NCBI RefSeq assembly: GCF_003611635.1
Contig: NZ_RAVZ01000064.1
Span: 1 to 33,167, forward strand
Direction of reading: 5' to 3'
From: Corallococcus terminator
GTDB lineage: Bacteria; Myxococcota; Myxococcia; Myxococcales; Myxococcaceae
DNA length: 33,167 nt
Position 1 is the first letter of the stretch. Every line of letters starts with the position of its first letter. Positions 16,457-27,474 of the stretch are shown in pieces. Both the position numbers and the translations under genes were made by a program. Below the pieces are notes generated by a model. The model made no database searches. It was not told the origin of the DNA and saw only the letters and a program-made list of their open reading frames with translations.

Positions 16457-19400
16457 ATGCGTGGTTTGAAGGCCGTCGCGTTGCTCGCGGCGGTGACGTC
16501 CGCAGTGTCCCCCGGGTTGTCACGTGCGCAGTCGCAGTCGATTGCCGCGGCGCACGTGTATCACAATCACATGCCCAACTTCTGGCCGTACTACGACGTC
16601 TCGCAATACGCGACGACGCCCGTGGGCGGTCCCATCCGTTACGCCTACGACGCGCAGGTCATCCAGATCAAGCAGTCGCCCCCGGCGAACTACACGTACT
16701 TCCTGCCGTCGGGCGCGCCCATGCCGCACGACGATCTGGTGACGTACTACTCGCACAACGCGAAGACGGGCGCGTACCTGTACTGGCCGCCGGACGTCGC
16801 GCAGGACATGCGCACCAACGCGTCCACCGGTCAGGTGCACGTGACGATGTCCGGCGCCGTGGTGAACAACGTCAACGACCTGTCCACGCGCAAGAACGTG
16901 GCGGGCTACGACAACGCGTCGTGGGGCTCGCCGTGGAAGGCGAAGTACGACGCCCTGCGCACGCCCACCGGCAAGCGCACGTTGGATCTCATCCACTTCA
17001 CCGGCCACCACAGCATGGGGCCGCTGGTGGGCAACGACTACTTCCTCAAGGACTTGGTCTACCAGAGCGCCACGCTCGCCCAGCCCTACTTCCTGGGCGG
17101 CAGCTTCCAGGCGTCCCCGGGCTTCTTTCCCACGGAGCTGGGGTTCTCCGAACGGCTGATTCCCACGCTGGCGAAGCTGGGCATCCAGTGGTCCGTCATC
17201 GGTGACAACCACTTCTCGCGCACGCTGAAGGACTACCCGTTCCTCAACGACCCGGGCTCGGACACGCTGGTGTCCCCGCCCAACCGCTCGGACCTGCAGA
17301 ACACCAGCGGCGTGGGCAGTTGGGTGAGCGCGCAGATGGCGCACGAGCAGCAGACCATCCGCAACAAGTACCCCTTCGCCTCCACACCCCACTGGGTGCG
17401 CTACGTGGACGCCGCCACGGGCGCCGAGTCCAGGGTGGTGGGCATCCCGGTGAACCAGAACGGTTCCTGGCTGGAGGGCTGGGAGGGCTCCGCGACGGTG
17501 GATGTCGTGAACCTCCAGAGCTTCCAGGGGCTGGTGCCGCAGCGGCAGTTCTTCGTGATTGCCCATGACGGCGACAACAGCGGCGGCCGGGCCGGTTCGT
17601 CCGACACCTGGTACAACGGCCGCAGCGCCACCTGTGCCGGGGGCGTGCAGTGCCTGGGCATCAGCGAATACCTGGCGGCCCACCCCCCGGTCGCCAGCGA
17701 CGTGGTGCACGTGCAGGACGGCTCCTGGGTGGACACGCGCGATTCGTCGTCGGATCCGCAGTGGCACCACTGGCGTCTGCCCATGGGCATCTGGAAGGGC
17801 CAGTTCCCCGCGTTCAACGCGGCCACCGGCCTCAACCTGGCGCCCAAGACGAACCTGAGCGGCCTGCAGGAGGGCATGACGGTCTCCTTCGAGCACGGCT
17901 GGCACTACCTGGAGCGCAACTTCGCCCAGCTCCAGGCAGCCCTCAACTACGCGAAGACGGCCGAACAGATCTGGCTGGACGCGCACCCCAACCACTGGAA
18001 GCCCACCACCGCCATCGACAGCCAGGTGACGCACGCGGGCAACCAGTTGAACCCGTGGATGTATTCATTCCCGGTGAAGGGCGACGCGGCCAACGACTGG
18101 GCCGGCGGCGCGAACCCCGCCGAGCTGTCCTGGTACTTCCTCCTGCCCGCGATGGACTCCGGCTTCGGCTACTACGACGAGAACGTGGACGACATCGTCA
18201 AGCCGACGCTGTCCTTCAACCAGTCGCTCTACTTCTCCAAGCCCTACGTGCAGGACCGCATCACCCAGGACCGCACCGGCCCGTCCGTGTGGTGGGCCAA
18301 TCGCTGGCCGTACAACCCCGGCAGCGCCAACACGGACAAGTCCGAGGGCTGGACGCTGCACCACTTCAACAACGTGTTCGGCCTCTACACCTACGCCCAT
18401 GACGTGAGCGGCATCGCCAGCATCAAGGCGCGCGTGCGCGTGCACACGGCGAAGTCCATCGACCCCACGGACAACACGCACAAGGTCTACGATCCGGCGG
18501 CGCTGAAGGCCGCGGGCATCCCCAACATCGACACCACGCGCGTGGGTGCGTGGGTGGACCATCCCCTCAAGCGCCGCGACCTACGCCCGTCGATGAACGG
18601 CGTGTCCTGGCAGCCCGCGCACCTGGCGGTGATGGCGAAGGTGCCGGCGCAGGAGACCGGCGACCTCTACTACGTCACGGTGGGCAACTACCGCGACCAG
18701 TTGCTCGACTACTACATCGAGGCCACCGACACGCGCGGCAACATCACCCGCAGCGAGATCCAATCCGTCTACGTGGGCGCGGGCCGCTACACGCTCACCG
18801 GCGGCAAGTACATCGAGGACATCAACGGCTCGGTGGTGGGCACCGCGCCCTTCCTGGTGGTGGACACCGCCGCGCCCTCCACGCCCACGGGGCTCGTGGC
18901 GGCCACGCGCACGGACCGCTCGGTGAAGCTCACGTGGACGGCCTCCACGGACGACGTGGGCGTCGCGGACTATCTCGTGTTCCGGGGCGGGACGCAGGTG
19001 GGCACCAGCACCACGCCGGCCTTCACGGACTCCGGCCTGACGCCGAACACGGCCTACAGCTACACGGTGAAGGCGCGGGACGCGGCGGGCAACACGTCCG
19101 CCACCAGCAGCGCGCTCGCCGTCACCACGAAGGCTCCGGACACCACGGCGCCGTCGGTGCCCACCGGGCTTGCGTCCGGGGCGGTGACGAGCTCCTCGGT
19201 CGCGCTGTCCTGGACGGCCTCCACGGATGACTACGCCGTCGCCGGCTACCTCGTGCTGCGCGAGGGCGTGCAGGTGGCTTCGGTCACCGGGACGACCTAC
19301 ACGGACACGGGCCTGTCCTCCTCCACGACGTACCTCTACACGGTGAAGGCCCAGGACGCGGCGGGCAACACGTCCGCCGCCAGCACCGCGCTCCCGGTGA

Positions 19401-20821
19401 CGACGGGCACCGGCTACACCACCACCGTCTATTACAAGAAGGGCTTCGCCACGCCGTACCTGCACCACCGTCCGGCGGGCGGCACGTGGACCGTGGCGCC
19501 CGGCGTGGCCATGCCGGACGCGGAGGTGGCCGGCTACGCGAAGTACACCGTCAACCTGGGCGCGGTGGACAAGTTGGAGGCCGTCTTCAACAACGGCAGC
19601 GGCACGTGGGACAACAACAACGGCCTGAACTACCTGTTCCCCGCGGGCACCTCCACGTTCAACGCCGGCACCATCACCCCGGGCGGACCGGTGGTGGACG
19701 CCACGGCGCCCTCCACGCCCACGGGCCTCACCGCACCGTCGAAGACGGACACGTCCGTGTCGCTGTCCTGGACGGCCTCCACGGACAACGTGGGCGTGAC
19801 GGGATACCTCGTGTTCCGCAACGGCACCCAGGTGGGCACGCCCACCAGCGCCGCGTTCACGGACACCGGGCTGTCCAGCAACGTCGCCTACAGCTACACG
19901 GTGAAGGCGAAGGACGCGGCAGGCAACACGTCCGCCGCCAGCACCGCGCTGTCCGTCACCACCAGCACGGGCAGCACCGCGACCGTCTATTACAAGAAGG
20001 GCTTCACCACGCCGTATATGCACTATCGCCCGGCGGGCGGCACGTGGACGACGACCCCGGGCGTGGCCATGCCCAACGCGGAGGTGGCCGGCTACGCGAA
20101 GCTCACCGTCAGCCTGGGCAGCGCCACGCAACTGGAGGCCGTCTTCAACAACGGCGGCGGCACGTGGGACAACAACGGCGGGCTCAACTACTTCCTGCCC
20201 GAGGGCACCTCCACGTTCACCGCGGGCGTCATCACCGCGGGCGCGCCCTCCACCGACACCACCGCCCCGAGCGTCCCCACGGGCCTCACCGCTCCGTCCA
20301 AGACGGCCACGACGGTGAGCCTGACGTGGACGGCGTCCACGGACGCCAGCGGCATCGCGGGCTACGACGTGTACCGCAACGGGACGCTCGTGGGTTCGCC
20401 CGCTTCGGCGGCGTACACCGACACGGGCCTCACCCTGGGCACGGCCTACAGCTACACCGTGCGCGCGCGGGACAACGCCGGAAACGCCTCCGCGCAGGGC
20501 AGCGCGTTGAGCGTCACCACCGCGACGAGCGGAGCCGCCGTCACCTTCCGCTCGACGGCGAGCACCGTGCAGGGCCAGAACGTCTTCGTGGTGGGCAGCC
20601 TCGCCGCGCTGGGAAGCTGGAGCCCGGCGGCGGCCATCGCGCTCTCGCCGGCCAACTACCCGACGTGGGATGCGACGGTGGGCCTGCCCGGCTCCACCGC
20701 GTTTGAATACAAGTACATCAAGAAGGACGCGGCCGGGAACGTCGTCTGGGAGAGCGGCGCCAACCGCGCTTCGACGACGCCCGCCAGCGGCACCGTGACG
20801 CTCAACGACACGTGGCGGTAG
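16457..20821 (+). CDS. secreted GH57/GH119-like alpha-amylase with FN3, CBM25 and CBM20 modules
   Basis: A 1454-residue extracellular glucan-degrading enzyme. The signal peptide ends near SRA-QSQ (residue 24). The catalytic region (about 30-640) has GH57-clan-like signatures: HNHMPNFW (36-43), FTGHHSMGPLVGNDYF (about 184), GFFPTELGFSE with candidate nucleophile Glu227 (or Glu232), VIAHDGDN with Asp371/Asp373 as candidate acid, and SFEHGWHYLERNF. The HNHMPNF form and the module set suggest GH119 rather than GH57. An Ig-like region (about 640-800) precedes FN3 (805-894), FN3 (895-984), CBM25 (985-1078), FN3 (1080-1170), CBM25 (1173-1264), FN3 (1266-1358) and CBM20 (1359-1454, GSWSP, EYKYIKK). 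Both CBM types bind starch or maltooligosaccharides. ATG 16457 has AAGG eight bases upstream. Exact specificity is inferred. Confidence 0.88.
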   Translation: MRGLKAVALLAAVTSAVSPGLSRAQSQSIAAAHVYHNHMPNFWPYYDVSQYATTPVGGPIRYAYDAQVIQIKQSPPANYTYFLPSGAPMPHDDLVTYYSHNAKTGAYLYWPPDVAQDMRTNASTGQVHVTMSGAVVNNVNDLSTRKNVAGYDNASWGSPWKAKYDALRTPTGKRTLDLIHFTGHHSMGPLVGNDYFLKDLVYQSATLAQPYFLGGSFQASPGFFPTELGFSERLIPTLAKLGIQWSVIGDNHFSRTLKDYPFLNDPGSDTLVSPPNRSDLQNTSGVGSWVSAQMAHEQQTIRNKYPFASTPHWVRYVDAATGAESRVVGIPVNQNGSWLEGWEGSATVDVVNLQSFQGLVPQRQFFVIAHDGDNSGGRAGSSDTWYNGRSATCAGGVQCLGISEYLAAHPPVASDVVHVQDGSWVDTRDSSSDPQWHHWRLPMGIWKGQFPAFNAATGLNLAPKTNLSGLQEGMTVSFEHGWHYLERNFAQLQAALNYAKTAEQIWLDAHPNHWKPTTAIDSQVTHAGNQLNPWMYSFPVKGDAANDWAGGANPAELSWYFLLPAMDSGFGYYDENVDDIVKPTLSFNQSLYFSKPYVQDRITQDRTGPSVWWANRWPYNPGSANTDKSEGWTLHHFNNVFGLYTYAHDVSGIASIKARVRVHTAKSIDPTDNTHKVYDPAALKAAGIPNIDTTRVGAWVDHPLKRRDLRPSMNGVSWQPAHLAVMAKVPAQETGDLYYVTVGNYRDQLLDYYIEATDTRGNITRSEIQSVYVGAGRYTLTGGKYIEDINGSVVGTAPFLVVDTAAPSTPTGLVAATRTDRSVKLTWTASTDDVGVADYLVFRGGTQVGTSTTPAFTDSGLTPNTAYSYTVKARDAAGNTSATSSALAVTTKAPDTTAPSVPTGLASGAVTSSSVALSWTASTDDYAVAGYLVLREGVQVASVTGTTYTDTGLSSSTTYLYTVKAQDAAGNTSAASTALPVTTGTGYTTTVYYKKGFATPYLHHRPAGGTWTVAPGVAMPDAEVAGYAKYTVNLGAVDKLEAVFNNGSGTWDNNNGLNYLFPAGTSTFNAGTITPGGPVVDATAPSTPTGLTAPSKTDTSVSLSWTASTDNVGVTGYLVFRNGTQVGTPTSAAFTDTGLSSNVAYSYTVKAKDAAGNTSAASTALSVTTSTGSTATVYYKKGFTTPYMHYRPAGGTWTTTPGVAMPNAEVAGYAKLTVSLGSATQLEAVFNNGGGTWDNNGGLNYFLPEGTSTFTAGVITAGAPSTDTTAPSVPTGLTAPSKTATTVSLTWTASTDASGIAGYDVYRNGTLVGSPASAAYTDTGLTLGTAYSYTVRARDNAGNASAQGSALSVTTATSGAAVTFRSTASTVQGQNVFVVGSLAALGSWSPAAAIALSPANYPTWDATVGLPGSTAFEYKYIKKDAAGNVVWESGANRASTTPASGTVTLNDTWR
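19141..20250 (+). repeat. tandem duplication of FN3-CBM25 unit inside amylase gene
   Basis: Two units of about 555 bp, 19141-19692 and 19693-20250, each encode one FN3 followed by one CBM25. DNA identity is high in patches: TCTATTACAAGAAGGGCTTC occurs in both at about 19429 and 19986, and GCGGGCGGCACGTGGAC also recurs. Flanking FN3 copies (18868 and 20251 onward) are more diverged. Confidence 0.75.
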
Positions 20822-21846: not shown

Positions 21847-23103
21847 TCAGGGGGTGGTGCCTTCGCTGACCGTGCCACCCGTGCGGCCCAGCACGTACTT
21901 GGCCAGCGCGAGCGCGTTGTTCTCGTCCACGAGGGTCGCGTAGGTGGGCATCTGCGTGCCGGGCTTGAAGGCCTCCGGGTTGCGGATCCACTTCGCCACT
22001 TCCTCCACGGGCTTGCCCTTCGCGCCCTGGAGCTTGGCCTCGTAGGCCTTGCCGGGGGCGTGGCACGTCGCGCAGCCCAGGGCGCTGAACATCTTCTCCG
22101 GGTCGCTGTTGGCGGGATCCACCTTGGGACGGCCGCCCGCGGGAGGAGGCACCACCTTGTCGACGGGCTTCATCGAACGGATGAAGGTGTAGATGGCGGA
22201 GAGCTCCGCGTCGTCCGCGTAGCGGTACTTGGGCATGGGCGCGCGCAGCAGGTGGCCGTCCGGCGTCACGCCGCTCTTCATCGCGAGGATGAACTCATCC
22301 AGGGTCCACTTGCCGATGCCGGCCGTCTCGCTGGGCGAGATGTTCGGCGACAGCAGCTTGCCCTCGCCACCCAGCGGCGTCATGTCGAACTCGAAGCCGC
22401 CGCCGAGGACGGTCGCCGGATCCTTCATCTTCTCCCCGCTGCTGCCGAAGCCGGGCGAGTGGCAGAAGACGCAGTCGTAGACGCTGGCCGACAGGTAGCG
22501 GCCGTACTCCACGGAGTCCGCCGCCTTCGCGGGCACCGGCACCTCCGCGGTGCGCGACTTGTCGTTGATGCCCATGGCGAACGAGAACACCATCCGGCCC
22601 GGGGGCGACAGCTCGGAGCGCGGCGGCTGCGCCTTCTCCGGCGCGAAGTCCGGGTGGCCTGAGCGCATGAAGCCGATCACCGCCGCCAGGTCCTTGTCGC
22701 CGATGTTGGGGAACGGCGGCATGGGGCGGAACTTGTTGTTGCGGTCGATGGAGTTGATCACCATGCGGGCGATCTCCTGATCCGACCAGGCGCCCACGCC
22801 CTTCTCCGGGTCCGACGTGATGTTCGCCGAGTAGAACGTGCCCAGATCTGGCGGGAAGTCGTGCATGCGCACGCCCACGGGCTTCGTGTTGCCTCCGCCC
22901 GCGTGACACTCGGCACAGACGGCGCGGAAGACCTGCTCGCCGCGCGCGATGCCCTCCGGCGACGAATCGCGAGTGATGTTGGGTAGCGCGACGTCCTCGT
23001 AGGTCTTATTCACCTTGTGGGTGGCCAGGCCCATCGCGGAGCCGGCACCAATCAGGACCAGGACGACCAGCACTCCGACGGCCAGCAGGATCTTCTTAAT
23101 CAT
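21847..23103 (-). CDS. membrane-anchored trihaem cytochrome c
   Basis: A 418-residue protein from ATG 23103 (GGAG about ten bases upstream); the frame continues upstream but without coding character. The N-terminal helix MIKKILLAVGVLVVLVLIGAG anchors it in the inner membrane with the rest in the periplasm. Three CXXCH haem sites, CAECH (about residue 63), CVFCH (about 211) and CATCH (about 344), each begin a class-I cytochrome c domain with downstream Met-containing segments as candidate axial ligands. Length and three-domain plan resemble cytochrome subunits of membrane alcohol/aldehyde/gluconate dehydrogenases, but no dehydrogenase gene is adjacent. Instead it lies downstream of two lipoprotein genes, one multihaem, suggesting an electron relay across the periplasm. 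A hairpin at 23138-23169 precedes it. Confidence 0.88.
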   Translation of the reverse strand: MIKKILLAVGVLVVLVLIGAGSAMGLATHKVNKTYEDVALPNITRDSSPEGIARGEQVFRAVCAECHAGGGNTKPVGVRMHDFPPDLGTFYSANITSDPEKGVGAWSDQEIARMVINSIDRNNKFRPMPPFPNIGDKDLAAVIGFMRSGHPDFAPEKAQPPRSELSPPGRMVFSFAMGINDKSRTAEVPVPAKAADSVEYGRYLSASVYDCVFCHSPGFGSSGEKMKDPATVLGGGFEFDMTPLGGEGKLLSPNISPSETAGIGKWTLDEFILAMKSGVTPDGHLLRAPMPKYRYADDAELSAIYTFIRSMKPVDKVVPPPAGGRPKVDPANSDPEKMFSALGCATCHAPGKAYEAKLQGAKGKPVEEVAKWIRNPEAFKPGTQMPTYATLVDENNALALAKYVLGRTGGTVSEGTTP

Positions 23104-23198
23104 GGGGAACGTTGCTCCGTACGGCGTGGATTCAGCACTTCGCCATCCCCGGTGAAGGAGAGGGCGAAGCGGGAGGCGTTGGTGGGGAGGGACTGCGA

Positions 23199-24353
23199 CT
23201 ACTGGAACGGAACGCAGGTGGTCGGCGGGGGAATGTTCGGCTGATTCAGCGGCACAGCGTCCGCCAACTGGAGCCCCGCGAACGTGATGACACCCGGCGT
23301 CGGGGGAAGCACGAGCGGATCCGTCTTCCAGGGCCGGTTCTCCACGGTGCTCGTGGTCAGGTCCTTCGGCGTGTAGACCACGGGAACCGGAGGCCCCATC
23401 AGCGGCGGATGGACGATGGCCACGAGGCCCAGGCTGCTCACGGGCGCGCCCGGGGCGACGAAGAAGCCGCGCGTGGACTGGATGGCCGCCAGCGGAGGCG
23501 GCAGCGGCGCGCCCGGAGGCGCCCACTCCAACGTCAGCACACGGCCCGCCGTGGCTTCCACGGTCGTGTTCTCACCCGGCACGCGGAAGACAGGGAAGCC
23601 GGGACGGTACAGCCAGAAGACCGTCACGCCGGCGTACTTCGCCGGGTTGAGCAGGTCCTGCACCGTCACGGGCGTGCCTTCCGTGCTCAGGAACTTCGCG
23701 ACCGCCTCCACGATGCCCTTGTCGCTCACCTGGATGGCTTCCAGGCCCACGCACGCGCTGTGGCCGGTGACGACCGGACGCGCGGCCGCGGTGGGCAGGT
23801 AGTTGCCCACGGGTACGGGGGGCAGCGGGAACGGCGTCGGCGCGTCGTTGGCCAGCGCGCCCTGCCCCAGCGACAGGACGAGGTAGATGGGGGGAGGGCC
23901 CTGCACGGGACCCTTGGGCCAGGGGCGCGTGGGCACCTTCTCGATGGTCCACAGGCCGGCCGTGCTGGCCATCACCGGCGGGGGCGGCGCGGGCGGCTGC
24001 CCCGTCGCGTCCGGCACCGTGTCCAGCACCGTCACCAGCGACTCGCGCACCGTCGAGCGCTGGAACAGCGGGCTGAACTCCGCGTACAGCGGCGGCAGCG
24101 GGCACTGCTTGCGGCCGTTGACGACGGGCCCGTACAGCTCCGAGCACATCGCCAGGTTGATGAAGTAGGCCTCCGGGTCGACCGTGAAGCCGGTCAGACG
24201 GGTGGTGAGGCCCGCCGGCTCGCGGTTCACATAGACGGGGCGCGGGACGAAGGTCGACGACGCGGGCGTGCCGGACTCCTGGCAGCCGACGCCCAACAGG
24301 CTCGCTCCAAGGAGCGTTCCAACGAAGAGTGACTTTTGCATGGCTCGTCGCAT
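23199..24353 (-). CDS. lipoprotein of the cytochrome cluster, function unknown
   Basis: A 384-residue protein from ATG 24353 (or ATG 24341, four codons later), three bases after the stop of the upstream multihaem gene, so almost certainly co-transcribed with it. The signal peptide MQKSLFVGTLLGASLLGVGC ends in a lipobox. The mature part is rich in Pro, Val and Leu with beta-strand character and no CXXCH haem site. It has a few cysteines (AMCSELYG, RKQCPLPP, HSACVGLE, TTCVPFQ) that could form disulphides. A segment TAGLWTIEKV followed later by PGFPVFRVPGENTTVEATAGRVLTLEWAPPGAP suggests repeated sheet domains. I do not recognise the family. Its location between two cytochromes suggests a structural partner at the outer membrane. 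Confidence 0.75.
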   Translation of the reverse strand: MRRAMQKSLFVGTLLGASLLGVGCQESGTPASSTFVPRPVYVNREPAGLTTRLTGFTVDPEAYFINLAMCSELYGPVVNGRKQCPLPPLYAEFSPLFQRSTVRESLVTVLDTVPDATGQPPAPPPPVMASTAGLWTIEKVPTRPWPKGPVQGPPPIYLVLSLGQGALANDAPTPFPLPPVPVGNYLPTAAARPVVTGHSACVGLEAIQVSDKGIVEAVAKFLSTEGTPVTVQDLLNPAKYAGVTVFWLYRPGFPVFRVPGENTTVEATAGRVLTLEWAPPGAPLPPPLAAIQSTRGFFVAPGAPVSSLGLVAIVHPPLMGPPVPVVYTPKDLTTSTVENRPWKTDPLVLPPTPGVITFAGLQLADAVPLNQPNIPPPTTCVPFQ

Positions 24354-24356
24354 CCC

Positions 24357-26294
24357 CTACTTCGCGGGGAGGATGTGGCTGGAGGGAAGCTGATCGCCGC
24401 CGTGGCACGTCTGCGCGCAGTTGCCGAACTTGTTCACGGCGCCGCGCTGCTTGAAGGCGGTCTGGAAGTATTCGTCGCCGTGCTGAGACGGGTGGCACGA
24501 ACCGCACAGGGCCAGGCTGGGGCGCTCGGTGCTCTTGCGCGTCAGGTGGCAGACGGTGCAGTCCGCGCGGTCCGCCGGGTAGCGCGACGAGTTCATGTGG
24601 ATGCGGTGCACCATCTCCTGCGTGCGGCCCACCGTGTCGGTGTCGTAGTGGTGGCACACCTTGCAGCTCTCGATGTGGTCCACCGACAGGCCGTGGCGCA
24701 GGTTGTCCAGTGAGTTCACGCCGCGGTGGCAGATCTGGCAGTTGCCCACGTTGCCCGGGTACGACGTCGCCTCGTCCTGGCCGACCTGGAAGAAGAACGG
24801 CGACAGCTTGGCGACGCGCTCACCCATGGAGGCGCGGTTGAACTTCACCAGCGCCACGTAGGTGCCCGGCTGGGCGTCCGCGGGCAGCGTGAAGGTCTGG
24901 CGCGTGGGCCACTTGAAGTCCGCGAGCCCCGGCGTCAGGCCGGTCAGCGTCGCGTCATCGATGAAGGCGAACGGGAACGGACGGGCCGCGAACTGCGGCT
25001 TGTCGCTCGGGTCGCCCAGCACCTTGAAGTTCTGGATGGGGCCGGCGATGGCCACGTTGGAGATGGAGTCGTTCTCCATGACGGTGCCAATGACGTTCGG
25101 GACGAAGGTCATGATGCCGTTGGACTGGTTGCTGATGATCTCCCGCGCGCTGGGCAGCAGGTCCGGCGAGTGCAGGTGGTTGCCCGCGCTGTCGCGCAGG
25201 TCGACGTAGATGCTCACCGGCTCGCCGGGCTTGTAGAAGCTGCCCTCCGCCGGAGGCGCGAACGTCAGCCGCGAATCCAGGCCCGGGCTGCACTGCACGG
25301 GCTGGCCCGCGTCGTCGGTGCAGGTGGAGGGACGGTCATCCGGGAGCACGTAGGTGACGGGGAAGAAGAACGGCCGGTTGGGAAGCTGGCTCCAAGTCGC
25401 CCGGAGCGCGCCGGGACCCGACAGGCGCGGGACGCGCAGCACCTTGAAGGGGTTGGTGCTGCCCACCATGTCCACGCGCGCGACGGTGCGGTACGTGGCG
25501 GGCTGCGCCATGCCGCCCGCGATGCCCGTGACGGTGCCGGGGTCCTTGTCACCGGGGAAGCGCGGCGGCTTCAGGTTCTCAGAACGCCAGGCGAAGCGCG
25601 AGTGGCCCGCGTAGGGCGACGACGCGAGCAGCTCCGAGCGCAGGTAGGTCTGGCTGGCGCGCGGGGTGCCCGCTTCGTCCAGCACCTCCACGGTGATGGT
25701 GTCGTCCGTCACCTTCTGCCAGTTCGCGTTGCCGAAGTGCACCTCGCGCGTCCAGCACTCCTCCACCGCGCCGGCGAGGCTGTAGAAGCTCCACTCGTCC
25801 TGGCCCTGGCTGACGTTGCCCCAGTCCAGGCCGGCGAACGCCGTCTGGGTCTTGATCCACGTCAGGGCACCGCTCAGGTCCGTGGGGTTGGTGTGCTGGT
25901 TGACCACGGTCTCCGAAACGGAGAACTGGTTCAGGAAGTACTGGGTGTCCGCCAGGATCTGCAGCGTGCCCGTGGGCGGCGACAGCGTCAGCGGATCCTG
26001 ACCGAGCGGCGTGATGCACACGCCCGGGTACGCCGGGCCGGGCGTGCCGTCCGGCAGCAGATTGGGCGTGCCGTTTCCCGCGACCATCTGGCCGTTGGGA
26101 AGAAAGGCGCAGCCATTGATGTACTGAAGGCTCAGCCGGACCGCTCCGGAATTGAGGCCTTGATAGGGGTCGAACCGTTTGGCGCCGCGGCCGGTGGTGG
26201 AGCCCTCGTCGTCAGTGACCTTGAGGAGGTTGCACGACAGCAGGGGCACCAGGAGGGCGCACCACGCGCTCTTGAGCAGGATTGAGCGGATCAT
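24357..26294 (-). CDS. pentahaem OmcA/MtrC-like outer membrane lipoprotein cytochrome
   Basis: A 645-residue protein from ATG 26294; an in-frame ATG seven codons earlier (26315) is also possible and neither has a clear Shine-Dalgarno. A signal ending in lipobox LLSC indicates lipid anchoring. Residues about 25-510 contain beta-sandwich-like regions with no haem sites. The last ~125 residues hold CQICH, CKVCH, CTVCH and CGSCH (24726-24740, 24651-24665, 24546-24560, 24492-24506) and CAQTCH (24402-24419), a CX3CH form, plus extra His that could be axial ligands. The CxxCH-dense tail after sheet domains recalls OmcA/MtrC-type cytochromes, with fewer haems. An outer-membrane electron-transfer role is inferred. 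It is first in a cluster with an unknown lipoprotein and a trihaem cytochrome. Confidence 0.85.
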   Translation of the reverse strand: MIRSILLKSAWCALLVPLLSCNLLKVTDDEGSTTGRGAKRFDPYQGLNSGAVRLSLQYINGCAFLPNGQMVAGNGTPNLLPDGTPGPAYPGVCITPLGQDPLTLSPPTGTLQILADTQYFLNQFSVSETVVNQHTNPTDLSGALTWIKTQTAFAGLDWGNVSQGQDEWSFYSLAGAVEECWTREVHFGNANWQKVTDDTITVEVLDEAGTPRASQTYLRSELLASSPYAGHSRFAWRSENLKPPRFPGDKDPGTVTGIAGGMAQPATYRTVARVDMVGSTNPFKVLRVPRLSGPGALRATWSQLPNRPFFFPVTYVLPDDRPSTCTDDAGQPVQCSPGLDSRLTFAPPAEGSFYKPGEPVSIYVDLRDSAGNHLHSPDLLPSAREIISNQSNGIMTFVPNVIGTVMENDSISNVAIAGPIQNFKVLGDPSDKPQFAARPFPFAFIDDATLTGLTPGLADFKWPTRQTFTLPADAQPGTYVALVKFNRASMGERVAKLSPFFFQVGQDEATSYPGNVGNCQICHRGVNSLDNLRHGLSVDHIESCKVCHHYDTDTVGRTQEMVHRIHMNSSRYPADRADCTVCHLTRKSTERPSLALCGSCHPSQHGDEYFQTAFKQRGAVNKFGNCAQTCHGGDQLPSSHILPAK

Positions 26295-26508: not shown

Positions 26509-27381
26509 CTACAGCAGGAAGCCGGCGGACATGAGCAGGCAGAATACCAGCCCCAGTCCCGCCGTCTTTCCCAGGTGCGGGTTCAGCGCGCCGCCGTCCT
26601 CCGTCCAGATGGCCCGGATCTCCCTCACCGCCAGGGGCAGCCCCCCCAGGGTGAGCAGCGACCCCAAGCGGTGTTCGGGGAGCAGCAGCCAGGCCAGGCC
26701 GGGGAGGAGGAACGCGCCGCCCACCACCAGCGTGTACTCCCACTGCCCGAAGCGGCGGCCGAACCTCACGACGAGGGTGTTCTTGCCCACGACCCTGTCG
26801 GTATGCCGGTCGCGCAGGTTGTTCACCGCGAGGATGCCGGACGCGATGAGTCCCATGGACAGGCCCGCCAGCGCGACCTCCCGCGTGACCTGTTGGGAGA
26901 GCACGACGTAGCTGCCACACACCCCGGACAGGCCGAAGATGAGCAGCACCAGCACGTCCCCCAGGCCCAGGTAGCCCAGCGGCACGGGGCCCGCCGAATA
27001 GAGGACCGCGCCCGCGAGACAGAAGGCCCCGCCCGCGAACACCGGCCAGCTTCCCTCCCAGGTCAGGAACAGCAGGGCCAGGAAGGAGCCGGTGAAGGCC
27101 AGGGCCGCGGCATTCGCCACCTCACGCGCGCTCAGCCAGCCCTTCTGCGTCACCCGCGCGGGGCCCAGTCGCGCGTCGGTGTCGGCGCCCCGTTCGAAGT
27201 CCGCGTAGTCGTTCACCAGGTTGCTGACGATCTGCATCAGCACGAAGCCAATCAAGAACGTGAAGGCGGGCACCGGCCTCCAGTTCCCCTCCGAGGAGGC
27301 GAAGGCCCATCCCAGCAGCGTGGGCGCGACCGAAGCGATGAGCGTCTTGGGGCGCAGGGCCAGCCACCAGACGCGACTCAT
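26509..27381 (-). CDS. menA: 1,4-dihydroxy-2-naphthoate polyprenyltransferase
   Basis: A UbiA-superfamily integral membrane prenyltransferase that joins a polyprenyl chain to 1,4-dihydroxy-2-naphthoate in menaquinone synthesis. The start at ATG 27381 (290 residues) gives the usual MenA opening MSRVWWLALRPKTLIASVAP and has GGAGG about ten bases upstream; ATG 27435 would add 18 less typical residues. The first Asp-rich site is NDYADFERGAD, followed by ARLGPARVTQKGW, the MenA-specific stretch. The second is NNLRDRHTDRVVGKNTL. About eight or nine hydrophobic helices are visible. It is an isolated gene here, with no other men genes adjacent, and lies downstream of an 11-bp tandem repeat and a weak promoter. 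Confidence 0.94.
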   Translation of the reverse strand: MSRVWWLALRPKTLIASVAPTLLGWAFASSEGNWRPVPAFTFLIGFVLMQIVSNLVNDYADFERGADTDARLGPARVTQKGWLSAREVANAAALAFTGSFLALLFLTWEGSWPVFAGGAFCLAGAVLYSAGPVPLGYLGLGDVLVLLIFGLSGVCGSYVVLSQQVTREVALAGLSMGLIASGILAVNNLRDRHTDRVVGKNTLVVRFGRRFGQWEYTLVVGGAFLLPGLAWLLLPEHRLGSLLTLGGLPLAVREIRAIWTEDGGALNPHLGKTAGLGLVFCLLMSAGFLL

Positions 27382-27474
27382 GGACGGCGTCGCCTCCAGC
27401 AGCGCTGGAGACGTCGACGAAAGCTGTGGGTTCATGGAGGGGGAGGAAGCGGCTGGGGGGAACGCGCTGTAGCC

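Follow-up and report, generated by a model that had tools for sequence, protein, structure and literature searches.

What can be the function of a gene cluster that encodes two multihaem c-type cytochromes and, between them, a lipoprotein without any haem motif? This question is raised by a 33,167-nucleotide stretch of the Corallococcus terminator genome (contig NZ_RAVZ01000064.1, positions 1 to 33,167; the window in the following), in which three leftward genes encode the pentahaem lipoprotein PENTA, the non-haem lipoprotein MID and the trihaem cytochrome TRI. The cluster is read here, tentatively and with a confidence that stays just short of even, as a menaquinone-linked outer-membrane redox module of the Myxococcaceae. 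A preliminary description had proposed that the cluster serves electron transfer in the envelope and includes a new non-haem lipoprotein, and to this extent it is supported by the present analysis. The three frames are indeed open, leftward and contiguous, separated by the reported gaps of 3 bp (PENTA/MID) and 95 bp (MID/TRI), of which the former becomes 15 bp if MID starts at M5 (start chosen by the gene caller), a start kept in at least 90% of 42 relatives. The eight haem sites and two lipoproteins that had been claimed are likewise present as four CXXCH and one CX3CH motif in PENTA, three CXXCH motifs in TRI and none in MID, with an N-terminal lipobox in both PENTA and MID. Scans for promoters and terminators gave consensus matches only. 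By title or abstract, no description of this cluster was found in the literature; secreted multi-haem proteins have been reported for some Myxococcota metagenome-assembled genomes, with Anaeromyxobacter named, and the present cluster is not among them in the accessible part of that source (PMC11495043).

The accumulation of haem motifs exceeds that in shuffled sequences. The CXXCH-type DNA pattern occurs eight times in the whole window, seven of these within the PENTA and TRI genes, compared with a mean of 2.09 and a maximum of 6 in 100 window shuffles, and residue shuffles gave on average 0.009 CXXCH motifs for PENTA (n = 2000) and 0.003 for TRI, never more than one in either case, where four and three are observed. 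In PENTA, the lipobox cysteine is found in 36 of 37 relatives, the exception having a called start downstream of it, and the candidate distal histidines H563, H566, H605 and H640 as well as four extra cysteines (62, 93, 325 and 335) are invariant in all of them. The CX3CH site presumably carries haem as well.

The relationship of PENTA to characterized cytochromes is indicated by its haem domain. A single-sequence search of the PDB with PENTA yielded no match at E ≤ 1, and the profile of the 37 relatives matched at the same threshold only MtrC (6qyc, E 0.0036), MtrC of the MtrCAB complex (6r2q, E 0.0044) and MtrF (3pmq, E 0.013), in each case within the haem domain. Pfam PF22113 matches PENTA of the window with an E-value of 4.3e-05 and 23.5 bits, under the 30-bit gathering cut-off, and is found at E ≤ 0.01 in 31 of the 37 members; TIGR03507 gives 18 bits at a curated cut-off of 209.3. 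In the predicted model (pLDDT 74.4, haems absent), residues 337-643 align in order with residues 328-648 of MtrC 6qyc (242 residues, Z 6.1, rmsd 6.3) and residues 335-645 with residues 317-640 of MtrF 3pmq (243 residues, Z 5.7, rmsd 7.4), both alignments spanning the beta as well as the haem domain of the model. Most chains listed for the model are beta-domains of complement/alpha-2-macroglobulin and RbmA, and MtrC is absent among the 50 Foldseek matches listed; among the chains listed, however, only the alignments with MtrC and MtrF extend to residues 643-645, where the haem domain ends, and none of the others passes residue 549. Because several individually moderate scores agree, the C-terminal half of PENTA is accepted, with moderate confidence and as predicted from sequence and model, to resemble the last beta-domain and the pentahaem domain of MtrC/MtrF, which would make PENTA a natural single MtrC module.

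PENTA is not a decahaem member of the OmcA/MtrC family, as its scores stay under the cut-offs and, in place of ten haem motifs in two pentahaem domains, five motifs are present in 37 of 37 relatives. It is probably built from one OmcA/MtrC-type module, though, and likely works like it. The preliminary description had set the cluster apart from OmcA/MtrC systems, a separation which has to be revised, as PENTA is probably not unrelated to them and resembles half of MtrC.

At which membrane these lipoproteins reside can be approached through their sorting signals. Aspartate at position +2, in E. coli an inner-membrane signal, is found in 12 of 36 PENTA sequences. For Myxococcus xanthus, the accessible part of the pertinent study gives lysine at position +2 in 8 of 12 inner-membrane lipoproteins and an association of alanine at +7 with matrix lipoproteins (PMC3222651). 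Since +2 lysine occurs in none of the 36 PENTA and none of the 42 MID sequences, both proteins are predicted by the M. xanthus rule to reach the outer membrane, the face of which the rule leaves unspecified; +7 alanine is present in three PENTA and two MID sequences.

MID appears to be the obligate partner of PENTA. Profile searches over 195 Myxococcota genomes recovered PENTA orthologues (E ≤ 1e-200) in 61 genomes and strong MID matches (E ≤ 1e-48) in the same 61, without any genome that possesses one clear orthologue alone, and all of these genomes belong to the Myxococcaceae, the family of the window itself. Two weak partial MID matches reside in much larger frames (G009 and G095), and seven further genomes have only a PENTA paralogue or distant homologue. 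In all 56 loci where the simple gene caller recovered both genes, PENTA and MID are neighbours on one strand, the intervals between them ranging from -61 to +20 bp, and locus G049a, which was missed by the gene caller, shows the same order by tblastn. Since the flanking genes vary between genera, this pairing is not background synteny. The expectation of a co-conserved set of three genes holds for PENTA and MID, with TRI a looser partner. A scan of named genomes found 27 loci labelled Myxococcaceae or Myxococcales, one record labelled Comamonas excepted, in Corallococcus, Myxococcus, Pyxidicoccus, Archangium, Hyalangium, Citreicoccus and metagenome-assembled genomes, the nearest named isolate being C. 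praedator with a PENTA 92% identical to that of the window. Within Corallococcus, two divergent cluster versions with PENTA about 50% identical (L108, L148, L149 and L152 versus the window and L140-L147) are distinguished, one with MenA2, a gene discussed below, and with TRI downstream, the other without MenA2 and with TRI upstream.

The lipobox cysteine of MID is present in 42 of 42 relatives, as are C24, C201 and C380. No family of Pfam or NCBIfam and no PDB sequence matches MID at E ≤ 1; one of the 42 members weakly matches CarboxypepD_reg (E 0.045). Modelled alone, the protein is predicted with confidence (mean pLDDT 87.4) to be rich in beta structure with short strands, and its first domain (about 46-212) appears prealbumin/CnaB-like (5aq0_B, Z 7.6, rmsd 2.1, 81 residues; 8bdw_A, Z 7.2). 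The part beyond residue 212, barely tested by structure comparison and judged from secondary structure and match lists, resembles, among the chains listed, 6hif_Y of the multihaem hydrazine dehydrogenase complex (Z 6.4, rmsd 2.2, 80 residues) at the level of a common arrangement, from which no relationship is claimed. The short strands and sandwich-type matches without any sign of a barrel do not support MID as a porin, and the highest-scoring matches, to an Archaeoglobus fulgidus lipase (Z 8.2-8.8, rmsd 4.7-4.9), are taken to reflect shared beta-domains and not a lipase. The ratio of nonsynonymous to synonymous substitution rates (dN/dS) of MID is the highest of the cluster, 0.54 and 0.71 in two pairs, compared with 0.29-0.33 for PENTA and TRI (two pairs each) and 0.30 for MenA2 (one pair), which might fit a surface-exposed partner.

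TRI starts with a long hydrophobic segment, and its three CXXCH motifs together with a Pfam Cytochrom_C match identify three class I haem domains. Among PDB sequences it matches, at E 4e-22 to 2.9e-17, the cytochrome subunits of dehydrogenases for glucose, fructose and alcohol, the best-matching stretches being residues 39-349 (8hdd_B, E 4e-22), 177-319 (7w2j_C) and 46-312 (8gy2_B), and dehydrogenase cytochrome subunits of this type pass electrons to quinone. A catalytic dehydrogenase gene was not recognised near TRI in the neighbourhoods examined, whose genes are not all annotated. In 44 of the 56 loci, TRI or a relative with two haems is found on the same strand no more than 300 bp from the pair. 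The order PENTA-MID-TRI of the preliminary description is limited to 12 of the 16 genomes of the window's genus and to G039, where TRI is downstream of the pair; elsewhere the cytochrome c gene is upstream or not found nearby. Two haem motifs instead of three characterize 28 of the 48 loci with a TRI relative (25 in g19, two in g5 and one in G034), and 21 of these 28 forms have a lipobox-like signal, which is found in none of the 20 three-haem forms, 18 of which possess a long hydrophobic N-terminal run. In genome G026 (L108:10426-16974), TRI is located about 8 kb from PENTA beside MMPL, LolA-like/DUF1329 and, below the cut-off, DUF1302-like genes, and G021 looks alike.

The menaquinone link is provided by a fourth gene on the same strand, absent from the preliminary description, which ended at 26294. 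MenA2, a second, diverged 1,4-dihydroxy-2-naphthoate (DHNA) prenyltransferase encoded 214 bp upstream of PENTA, shares a conserved neighbourhood with the cluster in 12 of the 16 genomes of the genus and scores 171.8 bits on TIGR00751 (cut-off 102.15). The other MenA of the window genome, MenA1, is part of the men operon on contig C858, with MenD, MenH, MenC and MenE as neighbours by eye. Two MenA genes occur in 13 of 92 genomes of the family, 12 of the window's genus and G034, and in all 13 the extra copy adjoins the PENTA cluster, in G034 in divergent orientation. The Corallococcus MenA2 proteins form one clade with 100/100 support and are about 40% identical to MenA1; the Asp-rich motifs are apparently kept, as judged by eye from the alignment, and prenyltransferase activity on DHNA is predicted from the sequence. 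As all MenA2 sequences including that of G034 fall on one branch side in 20% of bootstrap trees, a separate origin of the G034 copy is not settled. In three further genomes, the cluster resides in or beside the men operon itself: in G041 between isochorismate synthase and the MenD-MenH-MenA-MenC genes with one opposite-strand gene between, in G040 in a similar arrangement with three opposite-strand genes, and in G080 followed by isochorismate synthase and MenD. These assignments were checked with NCBIfam for MenA and MenC in G041, isochorismate synthase, MenD and MenH in G040, and isochorismate synthase and MenD in G080, the remainder being assigned by clustering.

Equally absent from the preliminary description is a TonB-dependent receptor with a CXXCH motif, which in eight genomes is encoded close to a PENTA homologue or to the cluster itself. 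G035-G038 and G042 encode a one-CXXCH receptor on the strand of TRI-PENTA-MID, two genes upstream of it; in G049a, receptor, PENTA and MID form one run with the receptor 12 bp upstream of PENTA; on contig C1214 of G008, the receptor follows a C-terminal MID piece after about 76 bp on the same strand, PENTA being on another contig together with the N-terminal MID piece; and in the distant genome G192, a two-CXXCH receptor overlaps the end of the PENTA homologue by 4 bp. The motif is found at one aligned place in seven receptor frames and in G035, the receptors being 28-82% identical to that of G042, and from a strand count by eye it would sit in an extracellular loop. Membership in the TonB-receptor family was determined with Pfam for G036 and G192 and by tblastn for the others. 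The window cluster and the loci of Myxococcus, Archangium and Citreicoccus showed no such receptor, the rest of those genomes not having been searched, and a literature search for CXXCH-bearing TonB-dependent receptors listed no paper that treats them by title or abstract. Where its gene is present, the receptor is likely the best candidate for a membrane-embedded partner. Genome G049 has two PENTA-MID clusters (L094 and L095), with a receptor in one and none found in the stretch of the other. A 299-aa exported protein, similar by eye, has its gene upstream of that for the receptor in G037 and G038 (L239:13391-14290, L240:13450-14349) and upstream of PENTA in G008 (L106:1184-2083).

Table. Coordinates of the cluster, its haem motifs and related genes. 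Residue statements refer to Cys and His of each motif; PENTA n = 37 relatives, TRI n = 20 three-haem relatives. Receptors carry CXXCH (GNCGRCH or similar) in the barrel region.
Feature	Position	Strand	Remark
TRI	21847..23103	(-)	418-aa trihaem class I cytochrome c, N-terminal hydrophobic segment
MID	23199..24353	(-)	384-aa lipoprotein, no haem motif or known family; predicted beta-rich
PENTA	24357..26294	(-)	645-aa pentahaem lipoprotein; predicted beta-domains ~52-508, pentahaem domain ~517-643
MenA2	26509..27435	(-)	second, diverged 1,4-dihydroxy-2-naphthoate prenyltransferase
PENTA pentahaem domain	24360..24746	(-)	residues 517-645, related to MtrC/MtrF domains II/IV; Pfam PF22113
PENTA haem motif 1, CQICH	24726..24740	(-)	invariant 37/37
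PENTA haem motif 2, CKVCH	24651..24665	(-)	invariant 37/37
PENTA haem motif 3, CTVCH	24546..24560	(-)	invariant 37/37
PENTA haem motif 4, CGSCH	24492..24506	(-)	invariant 37/37
PENTA haem motif 5, CAQTCH (CX3CH)	24402..24419	(-)	invariant 37/37
TRI haem motif 1, CAECH	22903..22917	(-)	invariant in 20
TRI haem motif 2, CVFCH	22459..22473	(-)	invariant in 20
TRI haem motif 3, CATCH	22060..22074	(-)	invariant in 20
Receptor with CXXCH	L237:8376-10598		
Receptor with CXXCH	L110:25-2493		
Receptor with CXXCH	L151:14288-16000		
Receptor with CXXCH	L094:9596-11725		
Receptor with CXXCH	L033 from 1017		
Receptor with CXXCH	L104:3-1937		
Receptor with CXXCH	L239:10705-13263		
Receptor with CXXCH	L240:10777-13245		
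PENTA paralogue	G000:C466:33433-34989 (L093:8425-10248)		~24-38% identity over matched parts

Two further genes are of note. In 32 loci (L097:8433-9440, L099:4826-5830 and others), a Rieske/VanA-like oxygenase gene, whose Pfam family was checked for L097 alone, precedes the cytochrome cluster of Myxococcus, Archangium and Citreicoccus and in places touches the dihaem cytochrome gene; as a part of the mechanism it was set aside, the window genome having only distant homologues (four places, 33-40% identity). Convergent with the cluster in the window, a 1454-aa secreted protein (16457-20821, plus strand) contains, by eye, repeated fibronectin-III-like and starch-binding-like stretches.

What the computation shows is which genes are present, that PENTA and MID are paired, that the haem motifs are conserved, that MenA2 is adjacent and that in some relatives the receptor is near; haem loading, outer-membrane location, the face occupied by PENTA, the electron path and its direction, and the role of MID are inferred. 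PENTA would be a lipid-anchored single MtrC-type module, composed of a beta-domain and a pentahaem domain, that is exported to the outer membrane along with MID, its obligate non-haem partner and putative scaffold or docking protein. From the inner membrane, where it would be anchored, TRI could exchange electrons with the menaquinone pool, supplied or diversified by MenA2, and relay them across the periplasm to PENTA, which, with MID, would pass them to an acceptor at the outer membrane. Where its gene is present, the CXXCH-bearing TonB-dependent receptor is likely the membrane-embedded partner.

Several observations weigh against this reading. The MtrC similarity of PENTA stays under the Pfam and NCBIfam cut-offs, the haem domain of its model is of low confidence (pLDDT 40-66 by block) with middling structural Z scores, and TIGR03507, run against the window's genome, missed PENTA at E ≤ 0.01 and gave one sub-threshold place elsewhere (19.7 bits). 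TRI or its relative is 0.6-7.8 kb away from the pair in 4 of the 56 loci and was not found near it in eight, of which one is cut off by a contig end; genomes that lack PENTA can also have solitary TRI-like genes, and nine TRI neighbourhoods away from PENTA showed no constant partner. The menaquinone link is equally restricted, as G021 and G024-G026, the Corallococcus genomes with the divergent cluster version, have no second MenA, which is likewise missing from the searched genomes of Myxococcus, Archangium and Citreicoccus, where the clusters are linked to the Rieske-type oxygenase gene instead. A route across the outer membrane is not shown, because no outer-membrane barrel is recognised in the cluster of the window's lineage; PF11854, the MtrB/PioB porin family, gave no match in the window genome at E ≤ 1, with two of 14 control genomes matched and none above the cut-off. 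That PENTA, MID and TRI alone form a complete new trans-outer-membrane conduit, as had been proposed for two cytochromes and two lipoproteins encoded in a single gene run, is highly improbable, given this missing porin match, a beta-rich MID that shows no barrel sign and a variable TRI that is not always nearby.

The direction of electron flow can also be questioned. Class I haems with His/Met ligation are usually of higher potential than bis-His haems, which in TRI, where the candidate Met ligands M290 and M385 are invariant in 20 of 20 three-haem forms, would favour the inward direction: PENTA would oxidise an external or periplasmic donor such as a reduced metal, a quinone or a prey-derived reductant and feed the aerobic respiratory chain through TRI. 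A dihaem class I cytochrome in a similar slot in Myxococcus and Citreicoccus is in line with this proposal, but among the neighbouring genes, not all of which are annotated, none was recognised as coding for a donor or an oxidase, and the link to menaquinone synthesis is compatible with quinone exchange either way. Inward flow as such is considered unlikely, and outward flow somewhat more likely. The receptor genes suggest another alternative, namely a redox-assisted uptake in which the ancestral unit was, similar to SusC/D, the CXXCH-bearing receptor with the surface lipoproteins PENTA and MID; PENTA would reduce a bound ferric or other metal complex for import by the receptor, and lineages such as Corallococcus would use an unlinked one. 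The linkage in the eight genomes and the single aligned place of the motif argue for such a unit, yet the receptor is missing from the loci named above and the supply of electrons to the surface is left unexplained; this proposal is likewise considered unlikely.

A role outside electron transport is suggested by a five-motif PENTA paralogue in the window's own genome, which adjoins genes for a FIST-domain protein, a hybrid histidine kinase and a response regulator, and by TfcP, another M. xanthus cytochrome c that, according to the accessible part of its description, is unlikely to act in electron transport and stimulates calcium binding by PilY1.1 (PMC8833165), a precedent that counts against an electron-transfer role. 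The neighbourhood of the paralogue, with gene families checked for L093 alone and similar-looking neighbours of relatives in L100, L101, L105 and L238, is possibly a haem-based sensory system, and PENTA-MID could by analogy act at the cell surface in redox or gas sensing or as an assembly factor. A sensor would not need as many as five invariant haem motifs at close spacing, however, and PENTA-MID has no signalling gene as a regular neighbour, though a kinase gene is upstream in G035, G036 and G042; a sensory or structural use of the haems is very unlikely. The menaquinone-linked redox module is preferred. A more far-reaching version of it, a new outer-membrane system in which PENTA, MID and a TonB-dependent receptor with a c-type haem covalently bound in its barrel region replace the MtrB porin and the MtrA wire and are served by a dedicated MenA2 menaquinone branch via TRI, has to be regarded as rather unlikely.

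How does the cluster compare with known systems? As in the OmcA/MtrC family, PENTA is a lipoprotein in which a beta-domain is followed by a pentahaem domain, in order with domains III-IV of MtrC/MtrF, and the module of domains I-II of MtrC has been reported, in the accessible part of the source, to fold alone and to load five bis-His haems (PMC12304082). PENTA differs in its five haems, where that family has ten, its CX3CH site, an extra N-terminal beta-region of about 280 residues and its strict pairing with MID, and unlike in MtrCAB no MtrA/MtrB partner was recognised in the cluster, the genome not having been searched with an MtrA model. TRI shares three class I haem domains with the trihaem cytochrome subunits of fructose, glucose and alcohol dehydrogenases, but has an N-terminal hydrophobic anchor and no catalytic dehydrogenase gene recognised in its cluster. 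In some relatives, a TonB-dependent receptor encoded with two lipoproteins recalls SusC/SusD, whereas here one lipoprotein is a cytochrome, the other is beta-rich and the receptor carries CXXCH. MenA2 has a possible parallel in DmkA, which is MenA-type. In the Gram-positive DmkA/FLEET system, a demethylmenaquinone-synthesis gene is encoded with a surface electron-transfer system (PMC9888254, as far as accessible), whereas the present cluster is cytochrome-based and Gram-negative; other FLEET genes were not looked for. This analogy is weakened, and with it the preferred reading, because in the same accessible text dmkA of Lactiplantibacillus plantarum is listed as dispensable for extracellular electron transfer, DHNA-dependent iron reduction falling only slightly (PMC9888254).

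MenA2 allows the idea of a quinone branch dedicated to a cytochrome-based system to be tested, and the CXXCH-bearing receptor raises the question whether an uptake receptor can join electron transfer. PENTA would offer a minimal natural system for the role of one beta-pentahaem module. MtrC-type modules are known from metal-respiring bacteria, and the predatory soil bacteria that carry this cluster are regarded as aerobes. A single MtrC module kept with an exclusive partner lipoprotein points to an unrecognised surface redox function in these predatory, multicellular bacteria, and the receptor-based system, if true, would tie their respiration to redox chemistry at the cell surface or to reductive uptake.

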